Shown here: piece by piece, positions 22,298 to 47,183 of the stretch | Layout of the letters: the number at the start of each line of letters is the position of its first letter | Position numbering within the stretch: the first letter of the stretch is position 1 | Assembly: GCF_004369205.1 (NCBI RefSeq) | Contig: NZ_QFGA01000002.1 | Location: 744,001 to 808,000, forward strand | Length of the DNA stretch: 64,000 nt | From: Pelotomaculum schinkii | Lineage (GTDB): Bacteria; Bacillota; Desulfotomaculia; Desulfotomaculales; Pelotomaculaceae | Direction: 5' to 3' | Translations under genes and position numbers: made by a program | Notes under the pieces: generated by a model | What the model saw: the letters and a program-made list of their open reading frames with translations, nothing else | Told to the model about the DNA's origin: nothing | Database searches by the model: none

Positions 22298-22321
22298 ATC
22301 GTTTACCTTCCTTTCCCAGGC

Positions 22322-22366
22322 GCACAAGGGAGTGAGGAAAACTGCAAATTTCCTCCTCCCTTGTGC
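22322..22366 (-). other. Intercistronic hairpin without T-tract
   Basis: Arms GCACAAGGGAG plus GAGGAAA pair with ATTTCCTC plus CTCCCTTGTGC around a short loop. No U-run follows on the minus strand. It sits between two surface-protein genes and more likely stabilises or punctuates mRNA than terminates it. Confidence 0.55.
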
Positions 22367-26689: not shown

Positions 26690-26774
26690 TGCCTTACCCT
26701 CCTTAATACAGATCATTTCAGCTCCAATTCTGCAAGGTTTGTTATTGCTCCAAAGCATGTTTCATAGGTTGACC

Positions 26775-26877: not shown

Positions 26878-29800
26878 TTACTTGAGGGCGTTGACGATCA
26901 CAGTGACAGCTTCGGCCCTGGTGGCGCTGCCCAGAGGGTTAAAGGTGTTATCAGGGTACCCCTTGATAACATCGTTCTCGACAGCCGTGGCTACGACGCT
27001 CCTGGCCCACCAGGAGATGTCCGCGCTGTCCGCGAAGGTGGTTTCATCAGTTCCCACGGGAAGCTTCGCGGCTTTGACCACCATCATCGCCATCTGCTCG
27101 CGGGTAATCAAATCGTCCGGCCCGAAAGTATCGGTATCGTACCCGTCGGCAATTCCGTAATAAACTGCCGTGGCAATGTAATCCTTGGCCCAATGGCCGG
27201 CGGTGTCTGCAAACACTTTGCCGCTCTGGGGGGTCAGCTTGAATGCTTTTACCAGCACAGTGGCAAATTCGGCCCGGGTGATGTTGCTGTCGGGCTTGAA
27301 GCTGCCGTCAGAATAGCCGTTAATGGCGCCGAGGGCAACCAGCTTATTGATGTTGTCCGCAGCCCAGTGACCGGCAATATCATTCAGGGTGAGCGTAGTC
27401 TCTTGGCCGGGGATATCATCCTTAGCGACTGTAGTCTCTTCTTCCTGTTTGACAGCAGCGAGTACGGCGAATTTGGTGAAGTGGTTAACTTTCACGGTGA
27501 TGGTAGAGCCCGACACGGCTCCGCCAAGGCTCACCCACTTAGCTGCAGTCTCGTCATAATAGTAGACAGCCGGGGTTTCGCCCGAAGCAAGGTCCGCCGG
27601 GTTGAAGCTAAACTTTAAGGTTACATCCTTGGCAAAGCTGTAGTTGTCCTGGCCGTCTACGCTGAACTCGTATACACTACCAACCAGTTTGAAGCCTTCA
27701 GACACTTCGGGAGGTTGGTCTACTTTCTGTATTTTTACTTCTACAGTACTGGTTCCCTGCAGTGAGTTTGCCGGAATTTCTACAGTAGCTTCATCACCAA
27801 GGCTTATTGTACCACCCTTACTGGGTGTTACAATTGCCGCTCCTGTCGTGGAGTTAACCGTATTCGATGTGCTTGAGCTACCGCCGCCGCTGTAACTAGT
27901 TGTCGTCACGGTGACACTGGGACCATCCGCGCTCTCATTGCCGGCCGCGTCTACCGCCTGCACCTTGAAGGTATACCGGGCGCCCGCGCTCAGACCGGTT
28001 ACATTGTAGCTGGTATCAGCAACCGGGCTCGCGGTCAGCAGGGTGGTTCCCCGGTAAACGTTGTACCCGGTCACGGCGACGTTGTCTGAGGCGCCGCTCC
28101 AGGTCAAGGTCAGCCTGGTCCGGCTCACGCTGGAAGTCGTCAGGCTGCCGCTGCTCCAACTCGGCGCGGTGGTGTCGGACACAACCGCAGTTTGGGTGTA
28201 AGTGACAAATTGGGTAAAGTGCTTGGTCCAAACCACCAGATCATCACCAGCGTCAATCTTACCATCACCGCCCGAGGTCAGAGCGTCACCCGCCTCCTGA
28301 CTGTCAGAGCTCAGGAAGTTGGTTATTTTGGTGAACACGCCTCCCCTGCTATAACCAACATCTTTGCCTGCCTGACCTGGGATCAGGATCCTTACAGCTT
28401 TATTGAAGGTCAATGGCACATCGCCATAGCCAATTTCTATGACAGCGTTGACTGTAGCAGTTTTTCCGGTGTCCGGTGTTACCGTTACGGAACCGTTAGA
28501 CCGAACTGCCGGCATATGAATGGCGCCGTTCCACCCTTCGGGAGCGCTTACGGTGGCTCCTGCCGGAATGGTTACCTGCACTGGGTCGGCGCTGACGGAA
28601 GTATTGGCTGCTATGTCCAGCGCCGGTAAAGCTGTTGTGGTTACCGTACCTGCGACAGGCGCGTTGAGCAATGCCGACACGCTAACCGTCGCGTCGGTTA
28701 CACTGGCAGGTACTGTGATCTTGACATCGGCCGGTGTATCCGCGGTTACGGCAAGATCTTTATTGGCGCCGTCATCCGTGATCGTCACACTCGAATCAGT
28801 AATCGTTACGGCATTGCTTGTCGCCACCGTGACGCTGGGGCCGTCCGTGCTCCAGTTGCCTGCCGCGTCGCCTGCCTGCACGGTGAAGGTGTACTGGGCG
28901 CCGGCGGTCAGACCGGCAACATTATACGTCAGGGTGTTACCATCAACTGCAGCCACTTCCGTACCGCCCTGGTAAACCTTGTAGCCGGTTACGCTGACGT
29001 TATCCGTGGCGGTGGTCCAGGTCAGAGTCAGTCCGGTCTGGGTTATATTGCCAGCCGTCAGAGTACTGCCATCCGGCCAGGTGGGTTCCATGGTGTCCGC
29101 AGGCTGGGGTACGCTGAATTGACCGTTGTTCACTGTTGCCGCAATGGACTGGCCTTGGGCGTCAGAGAGAATTACCCCGCTTAATCCCAGTGCGCTTGTC
29201 TGTCCGGCTTGCACTCCTGCGGCAACCTGGAACTGCAGCTGCGCTACCGTGCCGCTGCCGCCGGGAACAGGTGTGTTGCTGGTGCTGTAGATGATTACCC
29301 TTAATTTGTCTCCTACCAGGTTGGCGCTAACAGTAAAGCCGTTTGCCAGGCTCCCGGTATTGGCTTGCTGGTAAATCAACTGGTTATGGTCATAGCTTAA
29401 ATCAAACTGCAGTCCGGCTACTTCACCCGAACTCGTTAAGGTGACCGGTATCTGAATCACATCTCCGGCACCGCCGCTGGCGTTACCAGCCGTCAACACC
29501 GGAGCCGTACCAACAGGAGGCGACAATGTGGATACCGTGGCAGCCGGGCCGTCACTGCTCCAGTTGCCGGCGGCGTCGCCCGCCTGCACCGTGAAGGAGT
29601 ACTGAGTGCCAGCGCTTAATCTGGTAACATCATAAGTCAGGGTACTGCCGTACACTGTATCCAGTACCGTACCGTTCTGATAGACCTTGTACCCGGTTAC
29701 ATCCACGTTATCCGTGGCGGTGCTCCAGGTCAGGGTCAAGCCGCTCTGGGTAACATTGCTCGTGGTTAACGAACTGCCGCTTGCCCAGGTGGGCGCTGCG

Positions 29801-32800
29801 GTGTCAGCAGGCTGGGGTACGCTGAATTGCCCGTTGTTCACTGTTGCCGTAATAGGTTGGCCCTGGGCATCGGAAAGAATTACCCCGCTTAACCCCAGTG
29901 TGCTTGTTTGTCCAGTTTGCACTCCTGCGGCAACCTGGAACTGCAGCTGCGCTACCGTGCCGCTGCCGCTGGGAACAGGTGTGTTGCTTCCGTTGTAGAT
30001 GATCACCCTTAAGCTATCACCTACCGGATTGGTGATAAGGGAAAAGCCGTTTGCAAGGCTTCCTAAGCTGGTTTGCTGGTAAACCAGCTGGGTATGGTCA
30101 TAGCTTATGTCGAACTGCAGTCCGGTTACTTCACCCGAACTTGTTAAAGTAACCGGCACCTGAATCACATCCCCGGCAACGCCGCTGACATTGCCGGCTG
30201 TCAGTACCGGAGCCGTACCGGTATTAGACGACAGCGTGGATACCGTGGTTGCCGGGCCGGTAGTGCTCCAGTTGCCGGCGGCATCGCCTGCCTGTACGGT
30301 GAAAGTGTATGTCGTGTTTGCCGACAGGCCGGTAACGCTGTAGCTGTATACGGCGCCGGCGACCGTGCCAATCTGTGTTGTGTCCTGGCAGAGGGCATAA
30401 GAAGTCACTCCGGTATCATCGGCGGCCGGGGTCCAGGTCAGGGTCAGCTCACTGCTGGTGACGTTGGATGCCGTCAGGCTGCTGCCATCCGGCCAGGTGG
30501 GCGCGGTGATATCGGATGAAGCAGCGGCAGCCGTAGTCACCGAGGTGCTCGGGCCGGTAGTGCTCCAGTTGCCGGCGGCATTCCCCGCCTGCACGGTGAA
30601 GGTGTATGTCGTGTTTGCCGACAGGCCGGTAACGCTGTAGCTGTATACGGCGCCTGCAACCGTGCCAATCTGTGTTGTGCCCTGGTAGATGGCATAGGAA
30701 GTCACCCCGGTATCATCGGCGGCCGGGGTCCAGGTCAGGGTCAACTCACTGCTGGTAACGTTGGATGCCGTCAGGCCGCTGCCATCCGGCCAGGTGGGCG
30801 CAGCAGCCGCTGCTGTTGACTGGTACAGGATATTGTTTTGCGTATCATAGATGATGATTTCTGCGTCAGAACCTGTAAATGTGTTGGCGTCGAGCACTGC
30901 TTGCGCCGCGGCCTGGGCTGAAGCTGCATCCGTGATGGCAACCCCGTTGAGGGTGGCGCCGGCAACGGCTTCCAGCCGGGAATTAAAGGTATTGCCGGTT
31001 ATAGTCACGACACCGGCCTCAATGCAGTTATTGGCCCCCGAGGCAAAAGTGTTGTTGGTTATGGTCAGCTTCTTGCCTGTGCCAGGTGTTCCCAATGTAG
31101 AAGCGGTAGCAAAAACGGCATACTGTTTCGTTTTGGAAACCTGGCAATTATTGAGAACTACTTCATATTGCTGTGTGGTATTATTCTCGACAGCATTAAT
31201 AATATAACCGTAATTATCCATTCCCTGGAAATTAATGCTATCCAGGTTAATGAAAAGGTAGTCGGGCACAGAAGCAAATTTGTTTATCGTTGATACTCCA
31301 TTACCGTCAAAGGTAAAGTTGCCCAGGTTTAGACCCTTTTGCCAATCCGGCCAGAAGATATATTCACCACTAAAGTTTGCCGAGATTGATTTACCCTTGA
31401 AGTCATATGTGCCTCCTACCATCATTGCATTAGTCAGAACGATGTTTTTCACCTGGGGCTTGTCGAGTGCGATTTTAAATTCGTCCCAGGTTCTGGCTGG
31501 GGTGGTCTCCGTCCAGCGCACGGTTAAGTTATACACCTTGGTGTCCGTTACTGACCCACATGTGATGGTTTCAGTCAATGTGACATCAGCGGAATCAGCG
31601 TCGGCCGGTTTGGTTACATAGAAGCTGTTAGGATCCAGAATTGCGCTATTTGAAGATGTATAGCTTACCGTAGCGTTGGAATAAGGTTGTTGCTTCCGAC
31701 TTAAGTTCTGGGTTACGCTATCAGCGCTGTCCCCAGCGGCAAAAGTAACCAGGTCCATGGCCTTAATAGCTGCCACGATATCGGCATCATCCAGCGGAAC
31801 GTATACACTGATTTCCGGCAGCTTCGCCGATATATTGCCGAACCAGTCTATGACTTCTGCGCTATAGCGATAGGTATGTCCTGCCTCAACGCTGGTATCA
31901 TAGAAACCTGGGGCAGTTACAGGACTAAAATACCACCACCAATTACCGATATAATCTTTGTTGACATCGTAATGACCCAGCAGGACATCATCACGGTAAA
32001 TATTGTAGCTAACGATGCCGGCGGGGTCCGGGTACACATCTGTACCAGCTTTGGGCTCTTTAATGTCAAGCCGTACTTTATCGGACGAAATCGAAGGCGT
32101 ATCAAAGGCATACCCCACCGGTGCTTGCGTATCTTCCCAGACGCCAAAGTCTTTAACAAACCGGTAATCATAATACGCCGTTCCGGTTATATTGCTGCCT
32201 TGCACCTCTGGAACGATGCCGGTGACCCATTTTCCTTGAAGCGGGTAAACCGTACATTTTTCAGGGTTTACTCCCTCTACCAGGGGGGAAGTTATCTTCA
32301 TCGCGCCTTTGAACTCAAAACCGGTAAATTCCGCATGTATAAATTTGCCAGCCACTTTAAGACCTGGGACAGGATCCGGTGTGTATTCGGTAACTGTCAT
32401 AGTAGCACCTGAAGGAACTTTTAAGTTCAACAGGTCGATGACAAGTCCACCTTCATAGATCATCGGGCGGCCGGTATAAATCGGGTAAGTGCTTCCGGGA
32501 TTGAGTTTCGGGGTAGTAACAGTTACCTGGGGACCGTCACTGCTTTCGTTGCCATTGGCGTCAAGCGCTTCCACTTTTATAGTGTTATCCGTACCGGAAA
32601 AAAGCGGCAGTGTACAGCTGGCATCGGTAACGGTTGTTTCATCCGCCAGAGTACTGGCATCACTGCCCTGGTAGAGCTTAACCTTATAGCCTGTCACCCC
32701 GATGTTATCCCAGGCCCCGCTCCAGTTCAGCGTCACACTCTGCGGGCCCAGATCGGCAGTGGTAAGGCTGCCATTGGTCCAGGCGGGCGGGGTCACGTCA

Positions 32801-34476
32801 TAAGCATTGGTGGTCAAAGTGAGACTGGGGCCATCAGTGCTCTCGTTCCCGGTCGTATCCACTGCCTGGACGGTAAAAGTATACTGGGTAGCGGGAGTGA
32901 GACCGCTCACAGTATAAGCAGTTGCCGTGATCGGGTCAGGCGTCAATAAAGTGGCGCCCTGGTAGAGCTTGTAGCCCTTTAGTTGATTCTGGTTGTCGGT
33001 TGCTACGCTCCAGTTCAGGGTTACGCTGTCCGCAACCAGCCCGGTTTGCGTGAGGCTGCCGCTGGTCCAGGCGGGCGGAGTGGCGTCTAATGTGGTTGCC
33101 GAAACCCTGGGTCCGTAGAGACTTTCGTGCCCATCCCCGTCCACCGCCTGAACGGTAAAGGTGTAACTGGTATTCTGCGTAAGCCCGCTTACATTGTAAG
33201 TGGTCGTAGTTACCAGGTCAGGCGTCAGTAAAGTTGTGCCCTCATAAATCCTGTAGCCGGTGACAGCCACATCATCTGCCGCCGGGTTCCAATTCAAAGT
33301 CAGGCCGGTGGCGGTCAGGTCCGAAACAGTGAAAGTCCTGTCCGGCCAACTGGGTATCGTTGGATCAAATTCAACAGACTTAACCAGGCGAATTCGATAG
33401 TTGCTATTATCCGCAATATAAAGTTTACCGGTCCCGTCAATCGCCACACCATACGGTGAAAAAAATTCAGCGGCGGTAGCCAGTCCGTCATAAAAACCAT
33501 AAGTTCCACTACCTGCCAGAGTACTGATATTGCCGCTGGCGTCCACCTTACGGATTCGCTGGTTATTACTATCGGCAATGTAAATATTGCCTGCGCTGTC
33601 CACTGTCACTCCATGAGGATAATCTAGCTGCCCGGCGGTAGCCGGACCACCGTCGCCGCCAAAACCACCGGCGCCGTTGCCTGCCACGGTGCTAATAACA
33701 CCAGCGGTATCCACCTTGCGAATTCGGTTATTTTGGCTATCTGCAAAGTAAAGATTGCCTGCGCTATCTACGGCCAGCTGATAAACCTGCGATATTTGCG
33801 CACTCACAGCCGGCCCGCCATCGCCCGAATAACCGTTGCTTCCAGTCCCCGCTAGAGTGCTGATGTTGCCGTTGTTATCTACCTTGCGAATCCGGTAGTT
33901 GTTACTATCAGCAATATAGAGGTTGCCTGCGCCGTCTACCGCCAGCCCGTAAACATACGATGATATTTGCGCATTGACAGCCGGTCCATCATCGCCTGCA
34001 TAACCGGAACTCCCGGTACCCACCACGGTGCTAATGTTGCCGCTGGCGTCAACTTTGCGAATTCGATAACTTCTATAACCGGCAATGTAGAGGTTTCCAG
34101 AGCTGTCTACCGCCACCGCTGTTGGAGCTTTCAGATCTGCATTCAGGGCTGAACCGCCGTCACCTGAATAACCGGAATTGCCGGTACCCGCTACGGTGCT
34201 GATATTGCCGTCGGTGTCAATCTTGCGGACTCGATGATTGTATTGATCAGGTATATAGATATTGCCTGCACTGTCAACCGCCAGCCCGTAAACACTCGAT
34301 ATTTGCGCACTAACAGCCGGTCCGCCATCGCCTGCATAACCGTTAATTCCAGTACCGGCCACAGTGCTGACCACATCCACTGTGTTCCCTGCCGCAAAAG
34401 CAGGTATGCTGCCAGCCGCAACCAGGAAACACAACATGATGGCAATTAAAATAAGAGGTTTATGTTTGTTTTTCAC
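26878..34476 (-). CDS. Giant SLH-anchored scaffoldin-like protein: NHL propeller, FN3s, beta-helix, two cohesins
   Basis: The 2532-residue protein has a signal peptide (1-29) and six NHL repeats (about 35-365, each like ISTVAGTG..GYSGDGGPA..LAVDSAGNLYIADSNN.RIRKVD), forming one six-bladed propeller. Three FN3, an unclassified domain, an atrophied-Ig domain (about 890-990) and a right-handed beta-helix (about 990-1220) follow. Two FN3 precede cohesin 1 (about 1421-1552); then FN3, cohesin 2 (about 1657-1792), FN3, the unknown domain shared with the neighbouring gene (ending KHFTQFVTY), FN3 and a ZU5-like domain. Three SLH repeats (about 2359-2532) close it. Start GTG 34476 behind GAAGGTGAT. 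With two cohesins and SLH anchoring it resembles an anchoring scaffoldin, but the propeller and absence of CBM or hydrolase are unusual. Confidence 0.88.
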   Translation of the reverse strand: MKNKHKPLILIAIMLCFLVAAGSIPAFAAGNTVDVVSTVAGTGINGYAGDGGPAVSAQISSVYGLAVDSAGNIYIPDQYNHRVRKIDTDGNISTVAGTGNSGYSGDGGSALNADLKAPTAVAVDSSGNLYIAGYRSYRIRKVDASGNISTVVGTGSSGYAGDDGPAVNAQISSYVYGLAVDGAGNLYIADSNNYRIRKVDNNGNISTLAGTGSNGYSGDGGPAVSAQISQVYQLAVDSAGNLYFADSQNNRIRKVDTAGVISTVAGNGAGGFGGDGGPATAGQLDYPHGVTVDSAGNIYIADSNNQRIRKVDASGNISTLAGSGTYGFYDGLATAAEFFSPYGVAIDGTGKLYIADNSNYRIRLVKSVEFDPTIPSWPDRTFTVSDLTATGLTLNWNPAADDVAVTGYRIYEGTTLLTPDLVTTTTYNVSGLTQNTSYTFTVQAVDGDGHESLYGPRVSATTLDATPPAWTSGSLTQTGLVADSVTLNWSVATDNQNQLKGYKLYQGATLLTPDPITATAYTVSGLTPATQYTFTVQAVDTTGNESTDGPSLTLTTNAYDVTPPAWTNGSLTTADLGPQSVTLNWSGAWDNIGVTGYKVKLYQGSDASTLADETTVTDASCTLPLFSGTDNTIKVEALDANGNESSDGPQVTVTTPKLNPGSTYPIYTGRPMIYEGGLVIDLLNLKVPSGATMTVTEYTPDPVPGLKVAGKFIHAEFTGFEFKGAMKITSPLVEGVNPEKCTVYPLQGKWVTGIVPEVQGSNITGTAYYDYRFVKDFGVWEDTQAPVGYAFDTPSISSDKVRLDIKEPKAGTDVYPDPAGIVSYNIYRDDVLLGHYDVNKDYIGNWWWYFSPVTAPGFYDTSVEAGHTYRYSAEVIDWFGNISAKLPEISVYVPLDDADIVAAIKAMDLVTFAAGDSADSVTQNLSRKQQPYSNATVSYTSSNSAILDPNSFYVTKPADADSADVTLTETITCGSVTDTKVYNLTVRWTETTPARTWDEFKIALDKPQVKNIVLTNAMMVGGTYDFKGKSISANFSGEYIFWPDWQKGLNLGNFTFDGNGVSTINKFASVPDYLFINLDSINFQGMDNYGYIINAVENNTTQQYEVVLNNCQVSKTKQYAVFATASTLGTPGTGKKLTITNNTFASGANNCIEAGVVTITGNTFNSRLEAVAGATLNGVAITDAASAQAAAQAVLDANTFTGSDAEIIIYDTQNNILYQSTAAAAAPTWPDGSGLTASNVTSSELTLTWTPAADDTGVTSYAIYQGTTQIGTVAGAVYSYSVTGLSANTTYTFTVQAGNAAGNWSTTGPSTSVTTAAAASSDITAPTWPDGSSLTASNVTSSELTLTWTPAADDTGVTSYALCQDTTQIGTVAGAVYSYSVTGLSANTTYTFTVQAGDAAGNWSTTGPATTVSTLSSNTGTAPVLTAGNVSGVAGDVIQVPVTLTSSGEVTGLQFDISYDHTQLVYQQTSLGSLANGFSLITNPVGDSLRVIIYNGSNTPVPSGSGTVAQLQFQVAAGVQTGQTSTLGLSGVILSDAQGQPITATVNNGQFSVPQPADTAAPTWASGSSLTTSNVTQSGLTLTWSTATDNVDVTGYKVYQNGTVLDTVYGSTLTYDVTRLSAGTQYSFTVQAGDAAGNWSSDGPAATVSTLSPPVGTAPVLTAGNASGGAGDVIQIPVTLTSSGEVAGLQFDLSYDHNQLIYQQANTGSLANGFTVSANLVGDKLRVIIYSTSNTPVPGGSGTVAQLQFQVAAGVQAGQTSALGLSGVILSDAQGQSIAATVNNGQFSVPQPADTMEPTWPDGSTLTAGNITQTGLTLTWTTATDNVSVTGYKVYQGGTEVAAVDGNTLTYNVAGLTAGAQYTFTVQAGDAAGNWSTDGPSVTVATSNAVTITDSSVTITDDGANKDLAVTADTPADVKITVPASVTDATVSVSALLNAPVAGTVTTTALPALDIAANTSVSADPVQVTIPAGATVSAPEGWNGAIHMPAVRSNGSVTVTPDTGKTATVNAVIEIGYGDVPLTFNKAVRILIPGQAGKDVGYSRGGVFTKITNFLSSDSQEAGDALTSGGDGKIDAGDDLVVWTKHFTQFVTYTQTAVVSDTTAPSWSSGSLTTSSVSRTRLTLTWSGASDNVAVTGYNVYRGTTLLTASPVADTSYNVTGLSAGARYTFKVQAVDAAGNESADGPSVTVTTTSYSGGGSSSTSNTVNSTTGAAIVTPSKGGTISLGDEATVEIPANSLQGTSTVEVKIQKVDQPPEVSEGFKLVGSVYEFSVDGQDNYSFAKDVTLKFSFNPADLASGETPAVYYYDETAAKWVSLGGAVSGSTITVKVNHFTKFAVLAAVKQEEETTVAKDDIPGQETTLTLNDIAGHWAADNINKLVALGAINGYSDGSFKPDSNITRAEFATVLVKAFKLTPQSGKVFADTAGHWAKDYIATAVYYGIADGYDTDTFGPDDLITREQMAMMVVKAAKLPVGTDETTFADSADISWWARSVVATAVENDVIKGYPDNTFNPLGSATRAEAVTVIVNALK
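29156..29280 (-). repeat. 125-bp block identical to 26229-26353 (cohesin 2)
   Basis: This is the partner of the identical block in the neighbouring cohesin gene. The first cohesin of this same gene (29820-30216) is more divergent over the corresponding bases, so the closest relative of cohesin 2 is in another gene. Confidence 0.8.
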
Positions 34477-34724: not shown

Positions 34725-37700
34725 TCAATTTCCTACAGCCTTTTTCACCATCTGCACCACATCCAGGATATTGATATTACCATCACCATTGAGGTCGGCA
34801 GCATTTAACTGCGCCGCAGTCGGAGTTGTCTTACCTGAAGCGAAGTTAACTGCCTGCACAACATCCAGGATATTAACTGTACCATCATTGTTTACATCAC
34901 CCCAGGTATTGCTAGCTAATGCCTTCATGGTTTGGGTAACCGCAGCGTCGTTATAACCTGTGGCGTTTACTACGATTGCATAGTCTTTAGCTGCAGTAAA
35001 AACACTCGGATCAATGGTGATGACACCGGCAGCGACGCTGTACCTGGCCTTGTCCACAACCGCACCGTCTACGGTTATGCCGGTAATGGCCGCCCGCCAG
35101 GCTTCATTGTCGGCAAAGGTTAGCTTCACTGACAGGCCGACGGTGTTATTAACAGCAGCTGCCAGGGATGGCGCCAATAATTTTGAAGAGGAATCTGCAA
35201 CCATGATCTGGTTGACAAAAATATCCGGATACCCGTTGGCCCTGATCACTACCGTATCATTCTTGGGGTTTTCAAACACACCGGCAGCAATCAGGATATG
35301 GCCCGGGGTTATGGTGCACTGATTGAAAACAGAAGTACCGAGATCCGGCCAGGCGCCCTGAACTCCCAGGAGCACGTCACTGATTGAATTCATCCATTCC
35401 GTATCGCCCTGAAAATAGATATCCACCGGCTGCCCGATGTATCCGCTCTGGCTGCCCTGAGCCGGAGTGGTGACGGAGATGCTGGGCCCATCTGTGGTTT
35501 CGGAATTCTCTGTATCCATTAACTCCAACTTGAAGTTGTAAGTCGTCCCTGGTTGCAGTCCCGTTACATTGTAGCGGCAGGTAAAGGGAAGAAGGGTGTA
35601 GCCGTAGGTGAAAGTAGTCAATACTTCGCCATTCTGGTACAGTTTGTATTGCAATCCTGAACTGGCGCTTTGCCAGGGCTGCGCCCAATTCAAGGTAAGA
35701 CTGGTGCTTTTGAGGTTGCTGACAATAATTTTGTTATTTATGGACCAGTTCATAGCGGAGCTGGCTGCTGTTCTGGCGGTTACACTGGGACCGGGGCTAT
35801 ACAACCTGCTCAACGCGTCTTCAGCATAGATCTGGAAAGTATACTCGGTATCCGGTTGTAATTCATTAACTTCACAGCCCAGGCAGCCCGGTGCAGTCCA
35901 GCGGGCTGTCCTTTGACCATTAACACCGATCCAATAGGCGTGGAGCCCCTCTTTATCAGTAGCCGGGGTCCAACTCAGTATTACACTGTTGGGGTTTACT
36001 GCAGTTACAGTGACCTTACTGCCTTCCGGCCAGACCGGGAGAGTATTGGGCAGAGTCGCAGCAGTGGTAACAGGACCGTCCAGACTCCATTTCCCCTCGG
36101 CATTGCCGGCTTCAACTCTGAACTGATAGGTTTGACCGGGCCGCAGGCCGGTGACATGGCAGGAAGTATTACTGACTATAGCGATCAGGTCAGCTCCCTG
36201 GTACACCCGGTATCCGGTCACGCCCACGGTATCACTGGCTCCGCTCCAGGTGAGAGTCAGTTCCGTTTCATCAATGGCACTGGCGGTGAGGGTACTGTTC
36301 GCCGCCCAGGCAGGCGCTCCCAGGGAGGAGGCAGTCTGGTCATCCGTTGCCGCCTGATACAAGACCACCGGATGGAAAACACTGTCCACGTTGTTGACAA
36401 CAACTACCGGTCCGCTGCCGGCGGTCAGTTCATTATTTGTCAGCAAGGCTGTTCCCGCAGTCGCTGCAGACGCCGCATCGGTGATCTTTACACCATTGAT
36501 GACGGTATTGGCTGTCGACTTGGTTTGAACTAAAATGCCGTCATCACAATTGCTGATCTTGTTCCCGATCAGGGTCGCAGTACGGCCCGGGGTGATCAGT
36601 AATCCCGCCGAAGGTCCGCCGCTGGTCATGGTTCCCTGGTATCCTGTAATGGTGTTGTTAACAGCGGTAAGGGTTCCGATTTTATCGTAGAGTACACCAT
36701 AGCCAGGTTTGCCGGCGCCGTCGAAGGTACAGTTCTCAATCCTGATGCCCGTTGGCTCATTGACCGCATTACCCTGTGTAACGATGACAGGCGCCACTTT
36801 GGTGCTGCCGAAGCGGCAATTGGTAAGCACGAGGCTGCCGCCGTGGGAGAGGATGAAACTGTCCAGGTTTTCCCCGCCCTTGAATTCCACGTTTTCGAAG
36901 TTATAACCGCACCGGCTTTGCGCCAGAGCCACAAAGGAATAGTTTAAAACCGGGTTTGAGGATAAACTTGGGTCTGAGGTCTGGTTGGCGTCAATCACGG
37001 CATTTTTGATAATTATGTTAACACCGGCGCTGTTAATAGCATTAACTGCAAATGGCTCCACTACAAGGGTCTTGCCCTTGGCATCAAAGACATTATTGGG
37101 AAAATCAGGAAAACCATCTTTAAGAATAATCGTCTGAATATTGTCCCGATTTATAGCATACTGGAGTTCAGACAAGGTATGAACAGGCATAACCCCGTTG
37201 GCCCAGGGTTCCCAGGTCACCCGCAGCTGTTTCGATACAGTGACAGGATCAATTACTTCACCGCGTTTTATCGTTGCCGTTAAGGTTACCACTTTATCAC
37301 TACCGTCAGCTGTTTTAATCACCCTAGCAGATTCTGCAGATGACATCTTAATAATTTCCGGATCACTGGAAGTCCACCAAATACGGACTTGCTCATCCAC
37401 GGACGTCGTAAAAGGCAGTTGGATATCGGTAACCACGTGGTCGGCACTGTCCCCGTCCGCATAAACAATGGGAATAGTCCCATCTTCAAGCTGTTGCCTA
37501 ATCGTGGCAAACACATCGGCGTCTGAACTGAACAATACTTTGACGCCCCCTGTGAGATTGGGCTCTTCATCCTCCGGGGTTGCATTATTAGCACACCAGC
37601 TCCAATTGCCCATGGGGTCATAGGCTTTCATATTGTAGGCGTAAGTCTGACCTACCTGCAGAGTGGAGTCGGCGTCTGTGAAGGTAGCGCTTCCGAACCC

Positions 37701-39899
37701 TCCGGAGCCGTCAACGTAACCCACCATTTTGCCGTCCCGGTACACTTCAACATAACTGATACAATCATTGTCATAGCACTGGATCTGCGGGAAGACAATT
37801 TTATAATTCTCGATATCAACAGTGGGAGGGGCTGTAAAAGCCACCGGTCCGGGTGCCGTATTGTCGTAGAAGACTTGATAGACAAAAGTCCCGCCCGCTT
37901 CCGGCACATCGGTGGCGGTTACACTAATCAGGTGATTATCAGCCTGACTGCGGTCCGGGGTCAGGTACAGCAGATCCCCGGTATATACAGACATCTTGTT
38001 GATATCCAGGCTCGGGTCCACCGGGAAAGTAAGGGTTACTTTCTTACCGTCTCCGGTACCCTGGAGATAAAACTCATAAGCAAACCCTACTGGAGTGATA
38101 AAATACTTTCTATTGATCACAGTACGCTTAAGACTGACCCGGTTGGTCGCAGCAGGATCAAGGTTTTCCGCCGTGACGGTGACATTGTCTTCAAAACAAA
38201 GAGGAACGCCGTTTTGCATCTCCACTTGGTTCCCGTCCTCGGTCAGGAAGACAGTCTTGCTGGCTGTTGCGCCATCCCCGCCTTTGACCCGCACTTCCAC
38301 CTGACTGGTTCCGGTAAGGATGCTTAATGCAGCAGCGTCAATTGCCGCCGTCGTTCCCGTATAGGGCAGGGCAGTCCAGTCACCGGAGGTGCTGCCGGTA
38401 ACAATCCGGTATTCCAGTTCGGCTCCATCAGGTAGTCCGGTCAAAGTTAATGTCTGGCCGGACAGCAAGGCGCTTGTCAAAGCAACGTCAGGGATGTCCG
38501 CCACTGTGGTAAAGGGAATCTCCACCGCAGGCTCACCCAGTGTACTTCCATTTTTAAAGGTAACGTCCGGTGATACGACAATCTTATAAGTTGAGTTGGG
38601 AGTTAACTGGGTCTGGGGTTGAACAAATAAGTTGGTTTTCTCGGGATTTTGTGTATTACTTGTATCTCCCAAACTAAATACATTCACGTTTGGCACCTGC
38701 TGGCCGCTGCTGTCCAGCAAAGTAATACAGTTGATATTCTGGGCAGTGTTAGCTATCACATTATAGGCAAACTTCAGTTTAATAATGGGGTTTAGCGGCG
38801 CCAATACACTGCTGTCAATTGCTTCTATATTCGTTGAAGTAATGTTATCGCTGTTGATGCTAGCCAGATAAGCGGTGACTCTGGTGTCCGCGGTTACAGC
38901 AGCTGCTGTAGTCGCATCAGCAGACGGGCCGCCGCTGCTCCAGTTGCCCGCCGCATCACCGGCTTCGACTTTAAAGCTATATGGAGTGCCGGCGGTTAGC
39001 CCGGTGACATTGTAATTCAACGTGTTTCCATCGACTGTCGCCAGAACCGTATTGTCCTGGTATATTTCGTAGCCCGTCACACCCACATTGTCGGTGGCCT
39101 CAGTCCAAGTCAGGGTCAGACTGTTTTGAGCCACATTACTCGCTGTCAAGGTGCTGTCGGACGGCCATGCGGGCGCTGTGGCATCGCTTTCAGGTGTTGC
39201 TGCTGTTGTTGCAGTCGTTGCAGTTGTTGCAGCGGCCGTAGGTCCGTTACTGCTTTCATTGCCGGCGGCATCCAGGGCTTGTACTGTAAAGGTATATGCG
39301 CTGGCAGCGCTCAGGCCACTGACGTCATAAGTTGCAACATCCCCCAGCGCAACTAAAAGTTCTGTCCCCTGATAGACTTTATAACCGGTTACAGCCGTGT
39401 CATCGCTTGCTCCTGACCAATTCAGAGTCAAGCCGGTCGCTGTTATATTGGCCGTGTCGAGCACTCCGTCAGTCCAGGCGGGTGCAGTTTGATCTGTTGA
39501 ACCCGAAGCAACTGTTGCTGTTGTTACTGTGACGCCGGGTCCGGTTGCGCTTTCATTGCCGGCCGCATCCAGCGCCTGCACTGCGAAATTGTAGGATGTT
39601 GCGGGCTGCAGGCCGCTGACGTCACAGGTATCGGCCCCATACACCATGGTCAGCACAGAGCTGTTCTCATATACTATGTAGCCCGTCACCCCGGTGTCAT
39701 CCTGGGCGCCGGACCAGTCCAGGGTCAGGCTTTGATCAGTCACAGCGGTGGCATTGAGCGTACCGTTTTCCCAGGCGGGCGGAGTTGTATCCGTTTCTGC
39801 GCCTGCTACAGTCAACGGCATGATATTAAGGAACGACGATAGCAACATCAATGCCGTGAGCAGCCAGGACAGGGCGCGACACTTTGCTTTAAAACGCAT
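34725..39899 (-). CDS. Dockerin-bearing FN3/Ig/beta-helix surface protein
   Basis: At 1724 residues, it has a signal peptide (1-34), three FN3 (37-330) and the recurrent Ig-like domain (about 342-466: LNPIIKLKFAYNVI, NINCITLLDSSG, LTPNSTYKIVVSPDVTFKNG). Unclassified beta domains, an atrophied-Ig domain, a right-handed beta-helix and three FN3 follow. Two beta-sandwich repeats resemble DUF1533/HID domains (about 1490-1660). A type I dockerin ends it (1664-1724), with two calcium loops, DVNNDGTVNILDVV and DLNGDGNINILDVV. It has no SLH, so surface retention probably goes through the dockerin to cohesins of the two downstream genes. The ATG follows AAGGAGG. It is the first gene of the minus-strand run and faces the XRE regulator. 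Confidence 0.9.
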   Translation of the reverse strand: MRFKAKCRALSWLLTALMLLSSFLNIMPLTVAGAETDTTPPAWENGTLNATAVTDQSLTLDWSGAQDDTGVTGYIVYENSSVLTMVYGADTCDVSGLQPATSYNFAVQALDAAGNESATGPGVTVTTATVASGSTDQTAPAWTDGVLDTANITATGLTLNWSGASDDTAVTGYKVYQGTELLVALGDVATYDVSGLSAASAYTFTVQALDAAGNESSNGPTAAATTATTATTAATPESDATAPAWPSDSTLTASNVAQNSLTLTWTEATDNVGVTGYEIYQDNTVLATVDGNTLNYNVTGLTAGTPYSFKVEAGDAAGNWSSGGPSADATTAAAVTADTRVTAYLASINSDNITSTNIEAIDSSVLAPLNPIIKLKFAYNVIANTAQNINCITLLDSSGQQVPNVNVFSLGDTSNTQNPEKTNLFVQPQTQLTPNSTYKIVVSPDVTFKNGSTLGEPAVEIPFTTVADIPDVALTSALLSGQTLTLTGLPDGAELEYRIVTGSTSGDWTALPYTGTTAAIDAAALSILTGTSQVEVRVKGGDGATASKTVFLTEDGNQVEMQNGVPLCFEDNVTVTAENLDPAATNRVSLKRTVINRKYFITPVGFAYEFYLQGTGDGKKVTLTFPVDPSLDINKMSVYTGDLLYLTPDRSQADNHLISVTATDVPEAGGTFVYQVFYDNTAPGPVAFTAPPTVDIENYKIVFPQIQCYDNDCISYVEVYRDGKMVGYVDGSGGFGSATFTDADSTLQVGQTYAYNMKAYDPMGNWSWCANNATPEDEEPNLTGGVKVLFSSDADVFATIRQQLEDGTIPIVYADGDSADHVVTDIQLPFTTSVDEQVRIWWTSSDPEIIKMSSAESARVIKTADGSDKVVTLTATIKRGEVIDPVTVSKQLRVTWEPWANGVMPVHTLSELQYAINRDNIQTIILKDGFPDFPNNVFDAKGKTLVVEPFAVNAINSAGVNIIIKNAVIDANQTSDPSLSSNPVLNYSFVALAQSRCGYNFENVEFKGGENLDSFILSHGGSLVLTNCRFGSTKVAPVIVTQGNAVNEPTGIRIENCTFDGAGKPGYGVLYDKIGTLTAVNNTITGYQGTMTSGGPSAGLLITPGRTATLIGNKISNCDDGILVQTKSTANTVINGVKITDAASAATAGTALLTNNELTAGSGPVVVVNNVDSVFHPVVLYQAATDDQTASSLGAPAWAANSTLTASAIDETELTLTWSGASDTVGVTGYRVYQGADLIAIVSNTSCHVTGLRPGQTYQFRVEAGNAEGKWSLDGPVTTAATLPNTLPVWPEGSKVTVTAVNPNSVILSWTPATDKEGLHAYWIGVNGQRTARWTAPGCLGCEVNELQPDTEYTFQIYAEDALSRLYSPGPSVTARTAASSAMNWSINNKIIVSNLKSTSLTLNWAQPWQSASSGLQYKLYQNGEVLTTFTYGYTLLPFTCRYNVTGLQPGTTYNFKLELMDTENSETTDGPSISVTTPAQGSQSGYIGQPVDIYFQGDTEWMNSISDVLLGVQGAWPDLGTSVFNQCTITPGHILIAAGVFENPKNDTVVIRANGYPDIFVNQIMVADSSSKLLAPSLAAAVNNTVGLSVKLTFADNEAWRAAITGITVDGAVVDKARYSVAAGVITIDPSVFTAAKDYAIVVNATGYNDAAVTQTMKALASNTWGDVNNDGTVNILDVVQAVNFASGKTTPTAAQLNAADLNGDGNINILDVVQMVKKAVGN

Positions 39900-40362
39900 T
39901 AGCCTTAGTTCCTCCTTTTTAATTGATGATTAATTGCTTAACTATCCAATACAATAGCCTTATCTGAAGGCGTTTTTATCCCCCCTCTTTCTTTTAATAT
40001 CCCGTTGGTACAGCAATTGTGTTCCCGGCTTCCCCCCCCCAAAAAAACAAACTATCCAGCAAGAAGATGCTTAGATGTATTTTTGTCTCGTTATATATGT
40101 TTTCGTCATTTTAAATTGAGCTGCACGGCCCATCCTTGTGGGCATCAAAACCATATGCCTTTAGGCAATATATATTATAGCATAATTTAACATGATGAAA
40201 AACTACATATTAAATTATTTTATTTTGTTATGTATGTTTTTGTTTAGTAATGAAATGAGCAATAAGATATTCTGATAAATGCAGCAACCGAATCAGACAA
40301 CCAAATATTGTTTATTGTCTGAAATTATGGCATAATCCTTACTAGGGAGATGACCTGCATCC
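39900..40362. promoter_or_regulatory. Divergent control region between dockerin gene and XRE-Ig regulator
   Basis: This 463-bp region holds an extended -10 box on the minus strand (TGCTATAAT, TATAAT at 40174-40179), giving a leader of about 265 nt for the dockerin gene. Near the 5' end of that leader are two small hairpins, TGCC-TTTA-GGCA (40156-40167 in plus sense) and GCCCA-TCCTTG-TGGGC (40128-40143). On the plus side lies the regulator's own promoter and operator (40293-40336). C9 and A7 runs occur near 40030. I could not match the leader to a known riboswitch class. Confidence 0.55.
40293..40336 (+). promoter_or_regulatory. Promoter of the XRE-Ig regulator with overlapping inverted-repeat operator
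   Basis: TTGTTT (40308-40313) and CATAAT (40331-40336) are 17 bp apart. An 8-bp perfect inverted repeat, TCAGACAA (40293-40300) and TTGTCTGA (40315-40322), brackets the -35 box with 14 bp between arms. This is the placement expected for an autorepressing XRE protein. Confidence 0.6.
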
Positions 40363-41481
40363 ATGAACTTTGGTAATCGCTTGAAACAGATTAGAGAACG
40401 CCAGATGCTTTCAACATCCAAGTTATCCAAACAATCCGGTCTAAGCCAGTCGTTTATCTGGAGAATTGAATCCGGAGAAAAGCAGCCGACGCTTGAGACT
40501 CTAAGGAAACTATCACTTGGGCTGGGGATGAGTTTAGGCGAGTTGCTCGGTGAAGAGTTGTTGAGTGAACCTGAATCGCCGAAGATCAACAGGATCGTCG
40601 GCAATATACGAAAACTCCCGGTCGAACAGGTTGATGCGCTTGATTTATTTATCGCCTCGCTTTCCCAGGGACACGCGGCTGGTGAGAACCCATTAACCTT
40701 ACAGGCAATTAATCTTAACCACCCTGATCAGGATCGTTTTGAAATTGAGTTGGTCTTCTCTGCCAATGTTTCCGCCATCATGGATCACCGGATCCCGGAC
40801 GGCACACAGAGGAATATGACGGGCTTCCATCTGTTTGACGACGGGATGAAAGAAGTGCCTATCGATGTCATACCCGGAAACAAAAAAATGCTTGGGCAGA
40901 GAGCTGAAAGAACCTTTATTGTTAGGCCCCAGATCCGGCTTACTGACGGAAGGGCGTATAAGCTGAACATATCCAAACTCTTGCAAGCCAATAACTACAA
41001 ATATCTGAAAGAAAACCACACGATCACATTTTCAACGTACGAAATCATAGACATCACGCCCTTTAACAAGAAACTGTGCAGTCCTTATCTTTCACTGACA
41101 CTGGACGGCAGCAATATCTCATCCGGCGACGAGAATGTTCCGGTTAATACCGATATCAGGCTGACATTTTCCAGCAACGTCGTTGCCAATGCGGTGCGGA
41201 ACCACAATCTGCAGTGCTTTTCTATGGAAAGCAGCAAGAAGCAGCCCGTTGAGATAGATGTTACCATGGCTGAACCGAATGATAATTCCGAGAAGAAAAA
41301 GGAAATCATTATCCATCCCCGGCACGGCTTACATAGAAATACTGTCTATATCCTGACCATCTCCGAAAACCTTCAGGGCGCCAATCAAAAGCTGTTGGGA
41401 ACCGACAAAGTTATCACCTTCACCACCGGCAATGCCAACATCACCGGTACCGATGAACAAGACGGCTCATCGATTGCGTAG
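40363..41481 (+). CDS. XRE-family HTH regulator with two Ig-like (Big_5-type) domains
   Basis: This 372-residue protein has no signal peptide or membrane helix. Residues 4-62 form an XRE/Cro-type HTH (LKQIRERQMLSTSKLSKQSG, LSQSFIWRIESGEKQPTLETLRKLS, LGMSLGELL). A short linker leads to two Ig-like domains at about 118-228 and 232-355. The second carries the full surface-domain signature: VNTDIRLTFSSNVVAN, NHNLQCFSMESS, GLHRNTVYILTISENLQGANQKLLG. Such domains are normally extracellular. Fusion to a DNA-binding domain suggests an intracellular sensor for the ligand handled by the surface proteins and ECF operon. It has its own operator-overlapped promoter and terminator and is divergent from the dockerin gene, its likely target. 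Confidence 0.85.
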   Translation: MNFGNRLKQIRERQMLSTSKLSKQSGLSQSFIWRIESGEKQPTLETLRKLSLGLGMSLGELLGEELLSEPESPKINRIVGNIRKLPVEQVDALDLFIASLSQGHAAGENPLTLQAINLNHPDQDRFEIELVFSANVSAIMDHRIPDGTQRNMTGFHLFDDGMKEVPIDVIPGNKKMLGQRAERTFIVRPQIRLTDGRAYKLNISKLLQANNYKYLKENHTITFSTYEIIDITPFNKKLCSPYLSLTLDGSNISSGDENVPVNTDIRLTFSSNVVANAVRNHNLQCFSMESSKKQPVEIDVTMAEPNDNSEKKKEIIIHPRHGLHRNTVYILTISENLQGANQKLLGTDKVITFTTGNANITGTDEQDGSSIA

Positions 41482-41553: not shown

Positions 41554-41702
41554 ATGCCCATCTTCAGGCGGATCTTCTCCTCGCCGGGACCATATCTTTG
41601 TAACCGTGAACGATGTCAGGGAGGGCTTTTTTGAAAGCAGGGTCCCTTCTGGTTACACTTTCTACCACTGAAGAATATTATAGGGAAAAAGGAGGTGTCC
41701 TT

Positions 41703-42104
41703 ATGGACTACGTCATCCAGCCCGGTGATACGTTAACATCCATCGCGGCCCGCTTTGGTGTCACTGTTGAAGACATTGTCAGAGTCAACCCAATACTTGT
41801 AAATCCGAATGCCATCTACCCCGGGCAGATTATCCATATTCCAATCGCAGGTGTAAGCCCCATACCAAAGGGGTCGCTTTACATTATCCAGCCTGGAGAT
41901 ACGTTGACTTCAATCGCATTAAGGTATAATATCCCGCCGGGGGCGCTATTGCAGTTCAATCCCCAAATTACCAATCCCAACTTGATTTACCCCGGTCAGA
42001 TTATTACCATTCCCCTGCCTTATGCAGCCTTACCACAGATGCCGGTGACCCCAATACAAAAACCGAACTTGCCTCCCAACTTTCCACCCTTCGACCCCTT
42101 TTGA
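41703..42104 (+). CDS. Double LysM-domain protein
   Basis: The 133-residue protein is two LysM modules (residues 2-48 and 58-104), each with YxIQPGDTLTSIA, an N-P-(I/Q) loop, and IYPGQII.IP. A proline-rich tail follows (PVTPIQKPNLPPNFPPFDPF). There is no signal peptide. LysM proteins of spore-formers lacking a signal are often placed in the spore coat or cortex from the mother cell (SafA-like). LysM binds N-acetylglucosamine in peptidoglycan. ATG 41703 follows AAAGGAGGTG; the upstream in-frame GTG/ATG codons lack such a site. It is a single gene with its own terminator. Confidence 0.88.
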   Translation: MDYVIQPGDTLTSIAARFGVTVEDIVRVNPILVNPNAIYPGQIIHIPIAGVSPIPKGSLYIIQPGDTLTSIALRYNIPPGALLQFNPQITNPNLIYPGQIITIPLPYAALPQMPVTPIQKPNLPPNFPPFDPF

Positions 42105-44766: not shown

Positions 44767-45078
44767 GTGTACAATCAGGGATGGTCCGACCAGCAACGCG
44801 GTGTGCAGGTAAAGGCCCTTAACCCTCAAGCCAGTGACATTACGGTTTATTATACCGGCCTGCTAAATAAGGCAGGAGCAACCCAGGTATTTCTTCATGC
44901 GGGTTTTGGCGACCCCAAGCACTGGAGCGTCACGGAAGATTACCGCATGCAGCGTACACCGGAAGGTTGGAAAAAGAGCTTCAACATGGAAGACAATACC
45001 GTTTCCTTTTGTTTCCGGGATTCGGGCAACAACTGGGACAATAACAACGGAAACAACTGGACTTACAGAATAACCTAA
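44767..45078 (+). CDS. Single-module CBM25-like carbohydrate-binding protein
   Basis: The 103-residue protein is one beta-sandwich module. Residues 20-103 follow the CBM25 pattern: ITVYYTGLLNKAGATQVFLHAGFG, W..V.DYRM, W.KSF, then CFRDSGNNWDNNNGNNWTY, the characteristic NWDNNNGxN(Y/W)TY end. CBM25 binds starch-like alpha-glucans. There is no signal peptide and no catalytic domain, so it may bind an internal glucan such as glycogen. GTG 44767 lies 8 bases after AGGAGG; the in-frame GTG at 44758 overlaps that site. A group II intron lies immediately downstream. Confidence 0.8.
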   Translation: MYNQGWSDQQRGVQVKALNPQASDITVYYTGLLNKAGATQVFLHAGFGDPKHWSVTEDYRMQRTPEGWKKSFNMEDNTVSFCFRDSGNNWDNNNGNNWTYRIT

Positions 45079-45128
45079 TCGAGTAGGGTAATGCTGCAGT
45101 AATTCTCTGCAGCATTATCCCTCTCACA

Positions 45129-45159
45129 GAACCGTACGTACGGGCCTCGTATACGGCTC
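45129..45159 (-). ncRNA. Group II intron domain V
   Basis: On the minus strand a hairpin GAGCCGTATACG, a short GC-rich bulge/loop, then CGTACGTACGGTTC is followed by TGTGAGAGGG. This has the size and arms of a bacterial group II domain V, the catalytic core of the ribozyme. Confidence 0.75.
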
Positions 45160-45179
45160 CTGACAAACCTCGGTCGTTA

Positions 45180-46448
45180 TCATTCATAATAACAAGGCAA
45201 AATCCCGACTTTTACCTTTGTCATATCAAACAGCTTAAGCGTGTCGAACCACCGGTTTGGAAGCGCCATGCTGATTAACGGGCTCGCTGAATTTCTCCAG
45301 AGTGTTACAGAGATTTTCTCGAAATTTCCGTGATATCCCATCCGGCGCAACTGCTTGTGTAGCGCTTTCCATGACTTCCATTCCTTCATCTTTTTCATCC
45401 GGAGCCGCCTTCTTATCCAGCCCATCAGATCCTCCAGCAATGCCTTGCAGTTGGCTATCCTGAAATAGTTAACCCAACCGCGCAATACAGGATTAAGTTC
45501 TTTTGTGACGTTCTCCAGATTCTTTCCCTGATTCCTTTTGGTCAGTTTCTTGATCTTGTCCTTGAAGCGTTTGATTCTTTTTGGATGTATGGCCACCCAC
45601 TTTTCGTATATGTTAACTCCCAAGTAGGCCACACCTTGATGTACGCTGGTTATGCAGGTCTTTTCCCGGTTCACCTTTAGCTTCAGGTCTTTTTCCAGTA
45701 TCTCTATGGCGCAGGCCATGTACTGACCTACCTGTTTCCGGCTTTTTCCGAAAATCAGGATATCATCTGCATAACGCACTATTCGTATCCCGGCTGCCTT
45801 CATCTTTTGGTCAAATTCATCAAGGTAGATGTTCATAAGCAATGGGGAGATTGGTCCGCCCTGGGCTGCGCCCAGTTCCGTCTCTTTTACCACTCCTTCT
45901 TCCATCACTCCTGATTTCAGGAACTGCCTCACCAGTTTCAGAATCTGCCCGTCGCTGACTTTCCTGTTTACTGCCCTGATTATTAACTCATGGTCCAGCG
46001 TGTCAAAGCATTTGGACAGGTCCATGTCGGCAACATATGTGAGTCCGTATTTATTCATGAACCTTTCCGCCTTGGCTATCGCATGCTGGCAGGATTTCCC
46101 CGGCCTGTACCCGTAGCTTGACGGATGGAAATCCGGGTCGAAGATGGGCTCCAGTACGTTTTTCAGGGCCTGTTGCGCCACTCTATCCCGGATCGCGGGT
46201 ATTCCTAATGGTCTTAGGCTTTTGTCCTCTTTTTCGATGTAGGTTCTTCTCACCGGCTGTGGTTGGTATGTGCCGGTTTTGAGTTCTTCATGCAGCTTCT
46301 GGAGGTTCTCCGAAAGCCCGGCTTCAAAGGCTTCAATAGTCTCCCCATCCATTCCTGGGGCTCCCTTATTGGCCTTCACCGCCTGAAATGACTTTCTCAG
46401 GTTCTCCATCTGATACACTTTGTCTCTCAAACTGTACCATTTCCGCAT
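45180..46448 (-). CDS. ltrA: Group II intron reverse transcriptase/maturase
   Basis: At 422 residues, this is a typical compact maturase. Reverse transcriptase blocks run from RRTYIEKEDKSLRPLGIPAIRDR and SYGYRPGKSCQHAI through DMDLSKCFDTLDHE and GAAQGGPISPLLMNIYLDEFD to the active site RYADDILIF. The thumb/X maturase domain follows (LNPVLRGWVNYFRIANC). No C-terminal HNH endonuclease is present. This matches introns that home by reverse splicing into DNA without an endonuclease, such as class C types targeting terminator hairpins. The ATG follows AAGGGAGAG. The frame is intact with the YADD residues, so the intron is potentially active. Confidence 0.95.
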   Translation of the reverse strand: MRKWYSLRDKVYQMENLRKSFQAVKANKGAPGMDGETIEAFEAGLSENLQKLHEELKTGTYQPQPVRRTYIEKEDKSLRPLGIPAIRDRVAQQALKNVLEPIFDPDFHPSSYGYRPGKSCQHAIAKAERFMNKYGLTYVADMDLSKCFDTLDHELIIRAVNRKVSDGQILKLVRQFLKSGVMEEGVVKETELGAAQGGPISPLLMNIYLDEFDQKMKAAGIRIVRYADDILIFGKSRKQVGQYMACAIEILEKDLKLKVNREKTCITSVHQGVAYLGVNIYEKWVAIHPKRIKRFKDKIKKLTKRNQGKNLENVTKELNPVLRGWVNYFRIANCKALLEDLMGWIRRRLRMKKMKEWKSWKALHKQLRRMGYHGNFEKISVTLWRNSASPLISMALPNRWFDTLKLFDMTKVKVGILPCYYE

Positions 46449-47183
46449 GATTCTCTCCCTTTCGCCATGCTCGCCTTCGCATTCTCGTTCCGGTTGCCGG
46501 TTTCTTCGTCCAATTTGCGGGCTTCTCTAGCTTTCGCAATATACCTCGCCTCCTTGGACTACTCCGTCCTGTGCGGTCGGTTGCGCCAGCAAATTCGTCA
46601 TCCCCGGTGCTACCGTACCCCTTGGCATTTCAGCCGCGGTTGTCTTCACTTGAACCGTCACTACCTTTACGTTGCTTGCATTCCTTGGTTTGTCTTCGTC
46701 CCTTCGCAGGTGCTAAAGGCTTTTGGCTCTTTAGTCCTCATTGCAACCAGGTGCAATGTCCCCTCAGTTTTCTCCTCCAGTCTGTTACCAGCCTTCATTG
46801 GCTGGGGGTTTCTCGCTACTACGGACTCATCTGCCACCCTGCACCACGTCTTCTCTTCCTTGTGTTTCCACTTGTTTGAGCTTACCTGTTTTATCAGGAT
46901 GATACAGGGCTTCCCCGGTAAAGTCTGCTTGCCTGAACTTGAACTCATCCGTCCTAACTCACCAGGTCTTCTAGCTTTCGGGCTTTCCCACTTGTTGCAA
47001 GGTTACCCACCTGATGAGCCAACTCCGGTATCACTTGCGCTATGTTCCAAGTTCCCCCGTCGGCTTCCTCCGGACCCCACCGTTACCAGTGGTGCCCTTG
47101 CTTACAGGTTGTCTTCCCGCTAGTTAGGTAACAGGGTTTCTCTCAACCCATCGGCTCGGCAGACATGCCGGGTGAACAGCAAC

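Follow-up and report, generated by a model that had tools for sequence, protein, structure and literature searches.

Repressors of the XRE/Cro-CI family, such as RstR, SinR, DdrO and ComR, are the closest described systems to the regulator considered here, and carry an N-terminal helix-turn-helix (HTH) domain of ~60 residues followed by a short dimerisation, protease or peptide-binding domain. ModE, in which a winged helix is combined with molbindin (Mop) domains, is linked to molybdenum/tungsten uptake. RodZ-type proteins hold an HTH and an Ig-like domain in a single chain that spans the membrane with the Ig-like part outside, and Big_5 (PF13205) and CopC-like domains are extracytoplasmic. 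A separate, RNA-based regulon is that of the Moco/Tuco riboswitch (RF01055).

The stretch of Pelotomaculum schinkii DNA analysed here (64,000 nucleotides, henceforth referred to as the window) contains a regulator gene that resembles each of these systems in part. Like the XRE/Cro-CI repressors, the encoded protein has an N-terminal HTH of that length, a divergent promoter region and a predicted operator over the transcription start, but its C-terminal part consists of two Big_5/Ig domains of an exported family. By a works-like analogy it also recalls ModE, with an HTH joined to tandem small all-β domains and a molybdenum/tungsten-uptake link. It unites HTH and Ig-like domains in one chain as RodZ does, but without a membrane segment. 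Both C-terminal domains have the Big_5/CopC-like fold; the matched known examples are exported and none among the matched structures is joined to an HTH, whereas the regulator is predicted to be cytoplasmic. Copies of RF01055 precede related surface/importer operons in other genomes, and the regulator would bring a protein-based switch to that promoter region, whereas the window's own cluster is without the riboswitch. The protein is most likely a one-component repressor type with an unusual sensor, a build not found described in the mainly open-access literature searched. The gene and its parts are as follows.

40363–41481, plus strand: regulator gene (372 aa; XRE HTH, helical linker, two N-x-x-C-type Big_5/Ig domains)
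40372–40548, plus strand: HTH, residues 4–62 (Pfam HTH_3; modelled fold that of the DdrO HTH)
40687–41058, plus strand: Ig domain 1, residues 109–232 (N-x-x-G in the window)
41089–41436, plus strand: Ig domain 2, residues 243–358 (Pfam Big_5; N282-x-x-C285)

The regulator passes the curated Pfam cut-offs of both families, with HTH_3 (PF01381) at residues 7–61 (E = 6.7e-11; 42.5 bits, cut-off 23) and Big_5 in two stretches, the best at residues 246–355 (E = 1.7e-15; 58.1 bits, cut-off 23.6). Neither a hydrophobic or transmembrane segment nor a signal peptide was detected in it, and the protein is therefore predicted to be cytoplasmic; its peak 19-residue mean hydropathy is 0.94 (≤1.20 in the orthologues), compared with 1.87–2.70 near the N-termini of four surface proteins of the window. 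An AlphaFold2 model (mean pLDDT 75, from a shallow alignment of ten rows) contains the HTH, two low-confidence linker helices and two β-sandwich domains. The modelled HTH (residues 1–64) has a lambda-repressor-like fold and matched the DdrO structure 6rnz with Z 12.5 and 1.2 Å over 64 residues. Domain 2 (pLDDT ~90) adopts a CopC-like fold (Z 12.3, 1.8 Å over 95 residues; CopC and PcoC at Z ~12), and domain 1, when modelled separately, again gave an Ig-like sandwich with moderate top Z scores of 8–9. Pfam, hydropathy and AlphaFold2 thus confirm the build given in the original prediction, an HTH at residues 4–62 followed by two Big_5-type domains with no signal peptide. A sequence search of solved structures returned significant matches for the HTH part only and nothing for the Ig part, and Foldseek with the regulator model matched HTH proteins and Ig proteins separately, not as one chain. 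Three closer assignments were rejected: the RstR family (NF041951) scored 50.3 bits, under its curated cut-off of 80; ModE identity was discarded since there was no molbindin/Mop Pfam match at E up to 10; and CopC gave no Pfam match at E up to 10, leaving a resemblance in fold only.

Both Ig domains were traced to an exported-domain subfamily of Big_5, defined in the present analysis by the motif N-x-x-C. The asparagine and cysteine are invariant in 26/26 aligned domains (18 surface domains from several genomes and 8 second domains of regulators), and the surface-protein signature that had been noticed in domain 2 is accordingly real; domain 2 keeps N-x-x-C in all eight orthologues. With a profile built from surface domains only, domain 2 scored 101–115 bits and domain 1 scored 42–59 bits, compared with ≤18 bits for other Big_5 proteins of the window's own genome, although the latter score highly with the general Pfam model. 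The domain-2 scores bear out the expected alignment beyond generic Ig. Profile-profile comparison (hhalign) with the surface domains gave E values of 6e-33 (domain 2) and 1e-15 (domain 1). In a tree, generic Big_5 domains fell outside (94/91) and both regulator domains among the surface domains, their exact placement being unsure and that of domain 1, on a long branch, unsure as well. Membership of both domains in the exported N-x-x-C family was confirmed by these sequence comparisons, so the kinship, noted before for the second domain, has to be extended to the first. Domain 1 keeps the asparagine and has the cysteine in two orthologues only (N-M-E-C in HGW-Firmicutes-15, henceforth HGW-15, and in the related genome G296). 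Since the Pelotomaculum lineage has N-M-x-G instead, the cysteine was probably lost there. In the sampled genomes, every exported-type N-x-x-C protein whose N-terminal end is present is hydrophobic there.

A regulator of the same operon in which the Ig domains provide merely dimerisation, stability or protein contacts, the signal lying elsewhere, is unlikely but deserves some weight. Ig domains often serve as assembly modules, the fold matches to CopC, Ldt and S-layer proteins reveal no ligand site, and the cysteine is gone from domain 1 in most orthologues; yet the source of both domains is the exported family of this operon in particular, and domain 2 retains an invariant N-x-x-C not obviously needed for pure scaffolding. 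Location in the cytoplasm does not by itself make a copy a sensor, since cysteine-less single-domain relatives without a signal peptide exist. Such proteins, 123–144 aa long with one family domain and N-x-x-Q, were observed at five loci (L114–L118; G296:C35, G431:C26, G243:C2, G390:C134 and G127:C1), and at a sixth (L119) a LysM domain is joined to an N-x-x-Q-type domain; a cytoplasmic or spore-coat role of this group is raised as a question.

Eight intact orthologues of the regulator were identified, with 72–89% identity. Full-length copies occur in Pelotomaculum sp. UBA10960, P. terephthalicicum, Pelotomaculum sp. SL1-B34.2, Desulfotruncus arcticus, HGW-15 (G411), G296, which belongs to HGW-15's family, and a short contig that was binned as Paceibacterota and is probably misplaced. 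One Syntrophomonas MAG has a frame-broken copy and another a fragment only. The distribution is patchy, with the regulator in 5/113 genomes of the class and in 3/398 sampled across the phylum. The architecture of HTH plus N-x-x-C Ig domains was not seen outside the orthologue group in ~500 genomes, no viral, phage or plasmid relatives of the regulator were found, and narrow, mainly open-access literature searches returned nothing on such a regulator or on an ECF transporter with a Moco riboswitch. The statement that no regulator of this build had been described therefore stood within that range. Median dN/dS computed over the eight orthologues (NG86) was 0.09 in the HTH, while Ig domains 1 and 2 had values of 0.18 and 0.21. 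Judged from these ratios, the regulator is under purifying selection in all parts, and the Ig part is no decaying passenger.

Divergently from the regulator lies a cluster of surface-protein and importer genes, all on the minus strand.

34725–39899, minus strand: divergent exported protein, predicted target (Pfam: Fn3, N-x-x-C Big_5 at 38502–38876, beta-helix, Shr-like_HID, dockerin)
26878–34476, minus strand: surface protein with NHL, Fn3, two cohesin and SLH domains (Pfam)
22391–26758, minus strand: surface protein with cohesin, Fn3, N-x-x-C Big_5 (~23381–23794) and SLH domains (Pfam)
21143–22327, minus strand: Big_5-like/SLH surface protein (Pfam)
20107–20949, minus strand: EcfA1-type ATPase (open reading frame; paralogue of 19286–20134, order conserved in other genomes)
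19286–20134, minus strand: EcfA2 ATPase (NCBIfam)
18450–19289, minus strand: EcfT, CbiQ-like (NCBIfam)
17547–18389, minus strand: exported N-x-x-C Big_5 protein with a C-terminal hydrophobic segment (Pfam, alignment, hydropathy)
17090–17533, minus strand: 147-aa protein with a hydrophobic N-terminus, cluster marker by its distribution (no Pfam family above cut-off)
16474–17064, minus strand: hydrophobic protein, putative ECF S component by position and hydrophobicity (no family match)
15684–16418, minus strand: TiaS/methanogenesis-marker-11-like protein (NCBIfam, below cut-off)

Two corrections to the original prediction follow from this map. The reading frame ending at 22391 opens at 26758 rather than at 26689, and the ECF genes, described as downstream, lie ~19 kb off, beyond the divergent surface genes and not downstream of the regulator. 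The conserved proteins at 16474–17064 and 17090–17533 have no Pfam or NCBIfam family. The Shr-like_HID domains (PF07550) of the divergent protein occupy residues 1581–1659, adjoining the dockerin. The TiaS-like gene adjoins the importer in most genomes, with three copies in HGW-15, and its product is possibly an enzyme acting on the imported compound.

A surface-protein/importer cluster was present within ~25 kb of the regulator at 6/6 intact loci with long context. These loci lie in different orders of Firmicutes, being found in Pelotomaculum, in Desulfotruncus arcticus and in two members of the Syntrophomonas-type family; the Pelotomaculum copies are not independent of one another. The 147-residue marker occurs in 5/5 regulator genomes of the class, in four of them on the regulator's contig at ~4–23 kb, the fifth being a fragmented assembly. 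The common gene order is EcfA1-EcfA2-EcfT-exported Big_5-147 aa-putative S component, in most cases with the TiaS-like gene next. This order, together with surface proteins near the regulator, was found in the window, D. arcticus, P. terephthalicicum, SL1-B34.2, where the first genes are broken, and G296. In HGW-15 a BtuCDF-type importer takes the place of the ECF transporter alongside the surface and TiaS-like genes, and P. terephthalicicum has the ECF operon on the other side of the regulator. Because the arrangement differs between genomes, the co-location exceeds simple shared synteny. An earlier impression of a non-conserved neighbourhood, based on differing adjacent genes in G003 and SL1-B34.2 (G015), was dropped when wider maps placed the cluster a few kb further on. 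The proposed association of such regulators with ECF and surface genes in other genomes thus holds at the orthologue loci, with the BtuCDF type at HGW-15.

Comparison of upstream regions located the following elements between the regulator and the divergent gene.

40308–40336, plus strand: predicted regulator promoter TTGTTT-17-CATAAT, conserved in orthologues
40174–40184, minus strand: predicted extended -10 (TATGCTATAAT) serving the divergent surface gene and immediately preceding the boxes
40132–40168, no strand assigned: candidate operator ATCCTTGTGGGCAT-N9-ATGCCTTTAGGCAA, two boxes 23 bp apart

Besides the regulator promoter, the upstream regions of five loci have in common paired boxes ATnCCTATAGGnAT spaced 22–23 bp apart. 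Position weight matrices (PWMs) built by leave-one-out picked the box pair as the best site at each cluster, at the divergent surface gene of the window, D. arcticus (G071), G296, HGW-15 (22-bp spacing) and the Syntrophomonas MAG; in the window the site scored 25.3 bits and the runner-up 13.4. The pattern was learned from the loci where it was then found, except for P. terephthalicicum, which had been left out. There, one site with the same spacing and orientation as elsewhere precedes the leading surface gene of the ECF operon, at a distance of 14 kb from the regulator, and 0/200 simulated 54-kb sequences scored as high. The pair is therefore present in five genomes besides the window's, always at the surface/importer operon; it was not found in SL1-B34.2, where the operon start is broken up, or in the fragmented UBA10960. 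A genome-wide search of 20 genomes, with one position relaxed to admit the P. terephthalicicum site, gave matches only in the window's genome, P. terephthalicicum, D. arcticus and G296, one each and at the operon, and a reversed control pattern gave no match in the same search. No boxes were found in 13 regulator-less genomes, including species of the genera of G296 and HGW-15, and the regulator-less clusters of G006 and G007 have no box pair. The binding site originally proposed at 40293–40322 fared less well. It overlaps the regulator's own -35 region, its arms (TCAGACAA/TTGTCTGA) occur in the window only and are not conserved in orthologues, and 8-bp inverted repeats arise in 19% of shuffles.

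Binding of the boxes by the regulator is inferred from this shared distribution. A different factor with the same distribution could read them, the regulator gene travelling with the cluster for another reason, and the patchy distribution together with high identity across families does suggest whole-cluster transfer. We assign this explanation a small probability, as purifying selection acts on all parts of the regulator, the boxes are missing from regulator-less clusters and genomes even within the genera of G296 and HGW-15, and rearranged clusters retain both regulator and boxes. In 6/6 loci an extended -10-like element of the operon is followed, ~4–9 bp further on, by the start of the boxes. 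A protein bound there would cover the predicted transcription start, and on this ground the regulator most likely acts as a repressor.

Genomic context connects the import system with tungsten/molybdenum metabolism. RF01055 was found (Rfam) at 9/20 sampled N-x-x-C loci of ~3.3 kb each, where the density in these genomes, roughly 2–5 per Mb, would lead one to expect ~0.3 over the 20 loci. G296 has three copies between the regulator and its surface operon and HGW-15 has one, with further HGW-15 copies before the importer and an oxidoreductase. Both inspected G296 copies lack stem P3, and the P3-lacking riboswitch type has been tied to the tungsten cofactor (Regulski 2008; PMC2408646). Related clusters adjoin genes for TupA/TupB, MoaA, MoaC, a MOSC protein and MobB (L077), aldehyde ferredoxin oxidoreductase (AOR; L078) and WtpA/WtpB (L080). 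Neither the intergenic region nor the cluster of the window contains a riboswitch, so that the metal link of the window's cluster is by kinship only. The window's genome has 19 Moco/Tuco riboswitches, several of them close together, and none within the window. At the HGW-15 locus L060 (3150–19735), each of two BtuCDF-type importers stands behind an RF01055 copy; one of them is accompanied by a radical SAM protein, and both are candidate tungsten/molybdenum-related importers.

We regard as evenly balanced the proposal of a one-component repressor that acts on the surface/importer operon, binding the paired boxes and sensing a tungsten/molybdenum-related compound with its Ig domains. The XRE domain would occupy the boxes, probably with one dimer per palindrome-like box, and thereby cover the transcription start of the operon and block initiation. 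The cytoplasmic N-x-x-C copies would serve as sensor for the compound met outside by the exported copies, either after its import or as a product, and its binding to the Ig domains would alter DNA binding. The compound would most likely be a tungsten/molybdenum-related oxyanion, complex or cofactor. Sensing and ligand identity are the weakest steps of this mechanism. A bolder version is offered tentatively and with distinctly less credence: the N-x-x-C Ig domain may be a previously undescribed binder of tungsten/molybdenum compounds (possibly the pterin cofactor or a precursor), capturing them outside and, when fused to an XRE domain inside, forming a new repressor class beside the Tuco riboswitch.

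The domains might instead sense a partner protein: the cytoplasmic N-x-x-C domains would bind an unexported precursor or a partner of the surface proteins, and operon output would be adapted to delays in export or assembly. One domain type on both sides would suit such an arrangement, as would the cohesin, dockerin and Fn3 binding modules of many surface proteins in the cluster. The riboswitch link favours a small molecule or cofactor, and we know of no precedent for partner sensing of this kind, which also counts against it; its probability appears slight. Under the preferred reading of compound sensing, the evolutionary route indicated is one in which the outer binding domain of an uptake system was copied into the cytoplasm and joined to a DNA-binding domain, whereby the regulator could read the importer's own cue. 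The regulator gives a handle on an unstudied importer of syntrophic bacteria, of either ECF or BtuCDF type and accompanied by Big_5, SLH, cohesin and dockerin proteins, and the predicted single-site operator is directly testable.

On the other side of the regulator, the gene directly downstream (41613–42104) encodes two LysM-like repeats with no clear signal peptide and is conserved, among the loci compared, only in UBA10960. A group II intron (RF00029, RF02001) occupies 45078–47092, with a reverse transcriptase at 45180–46448.
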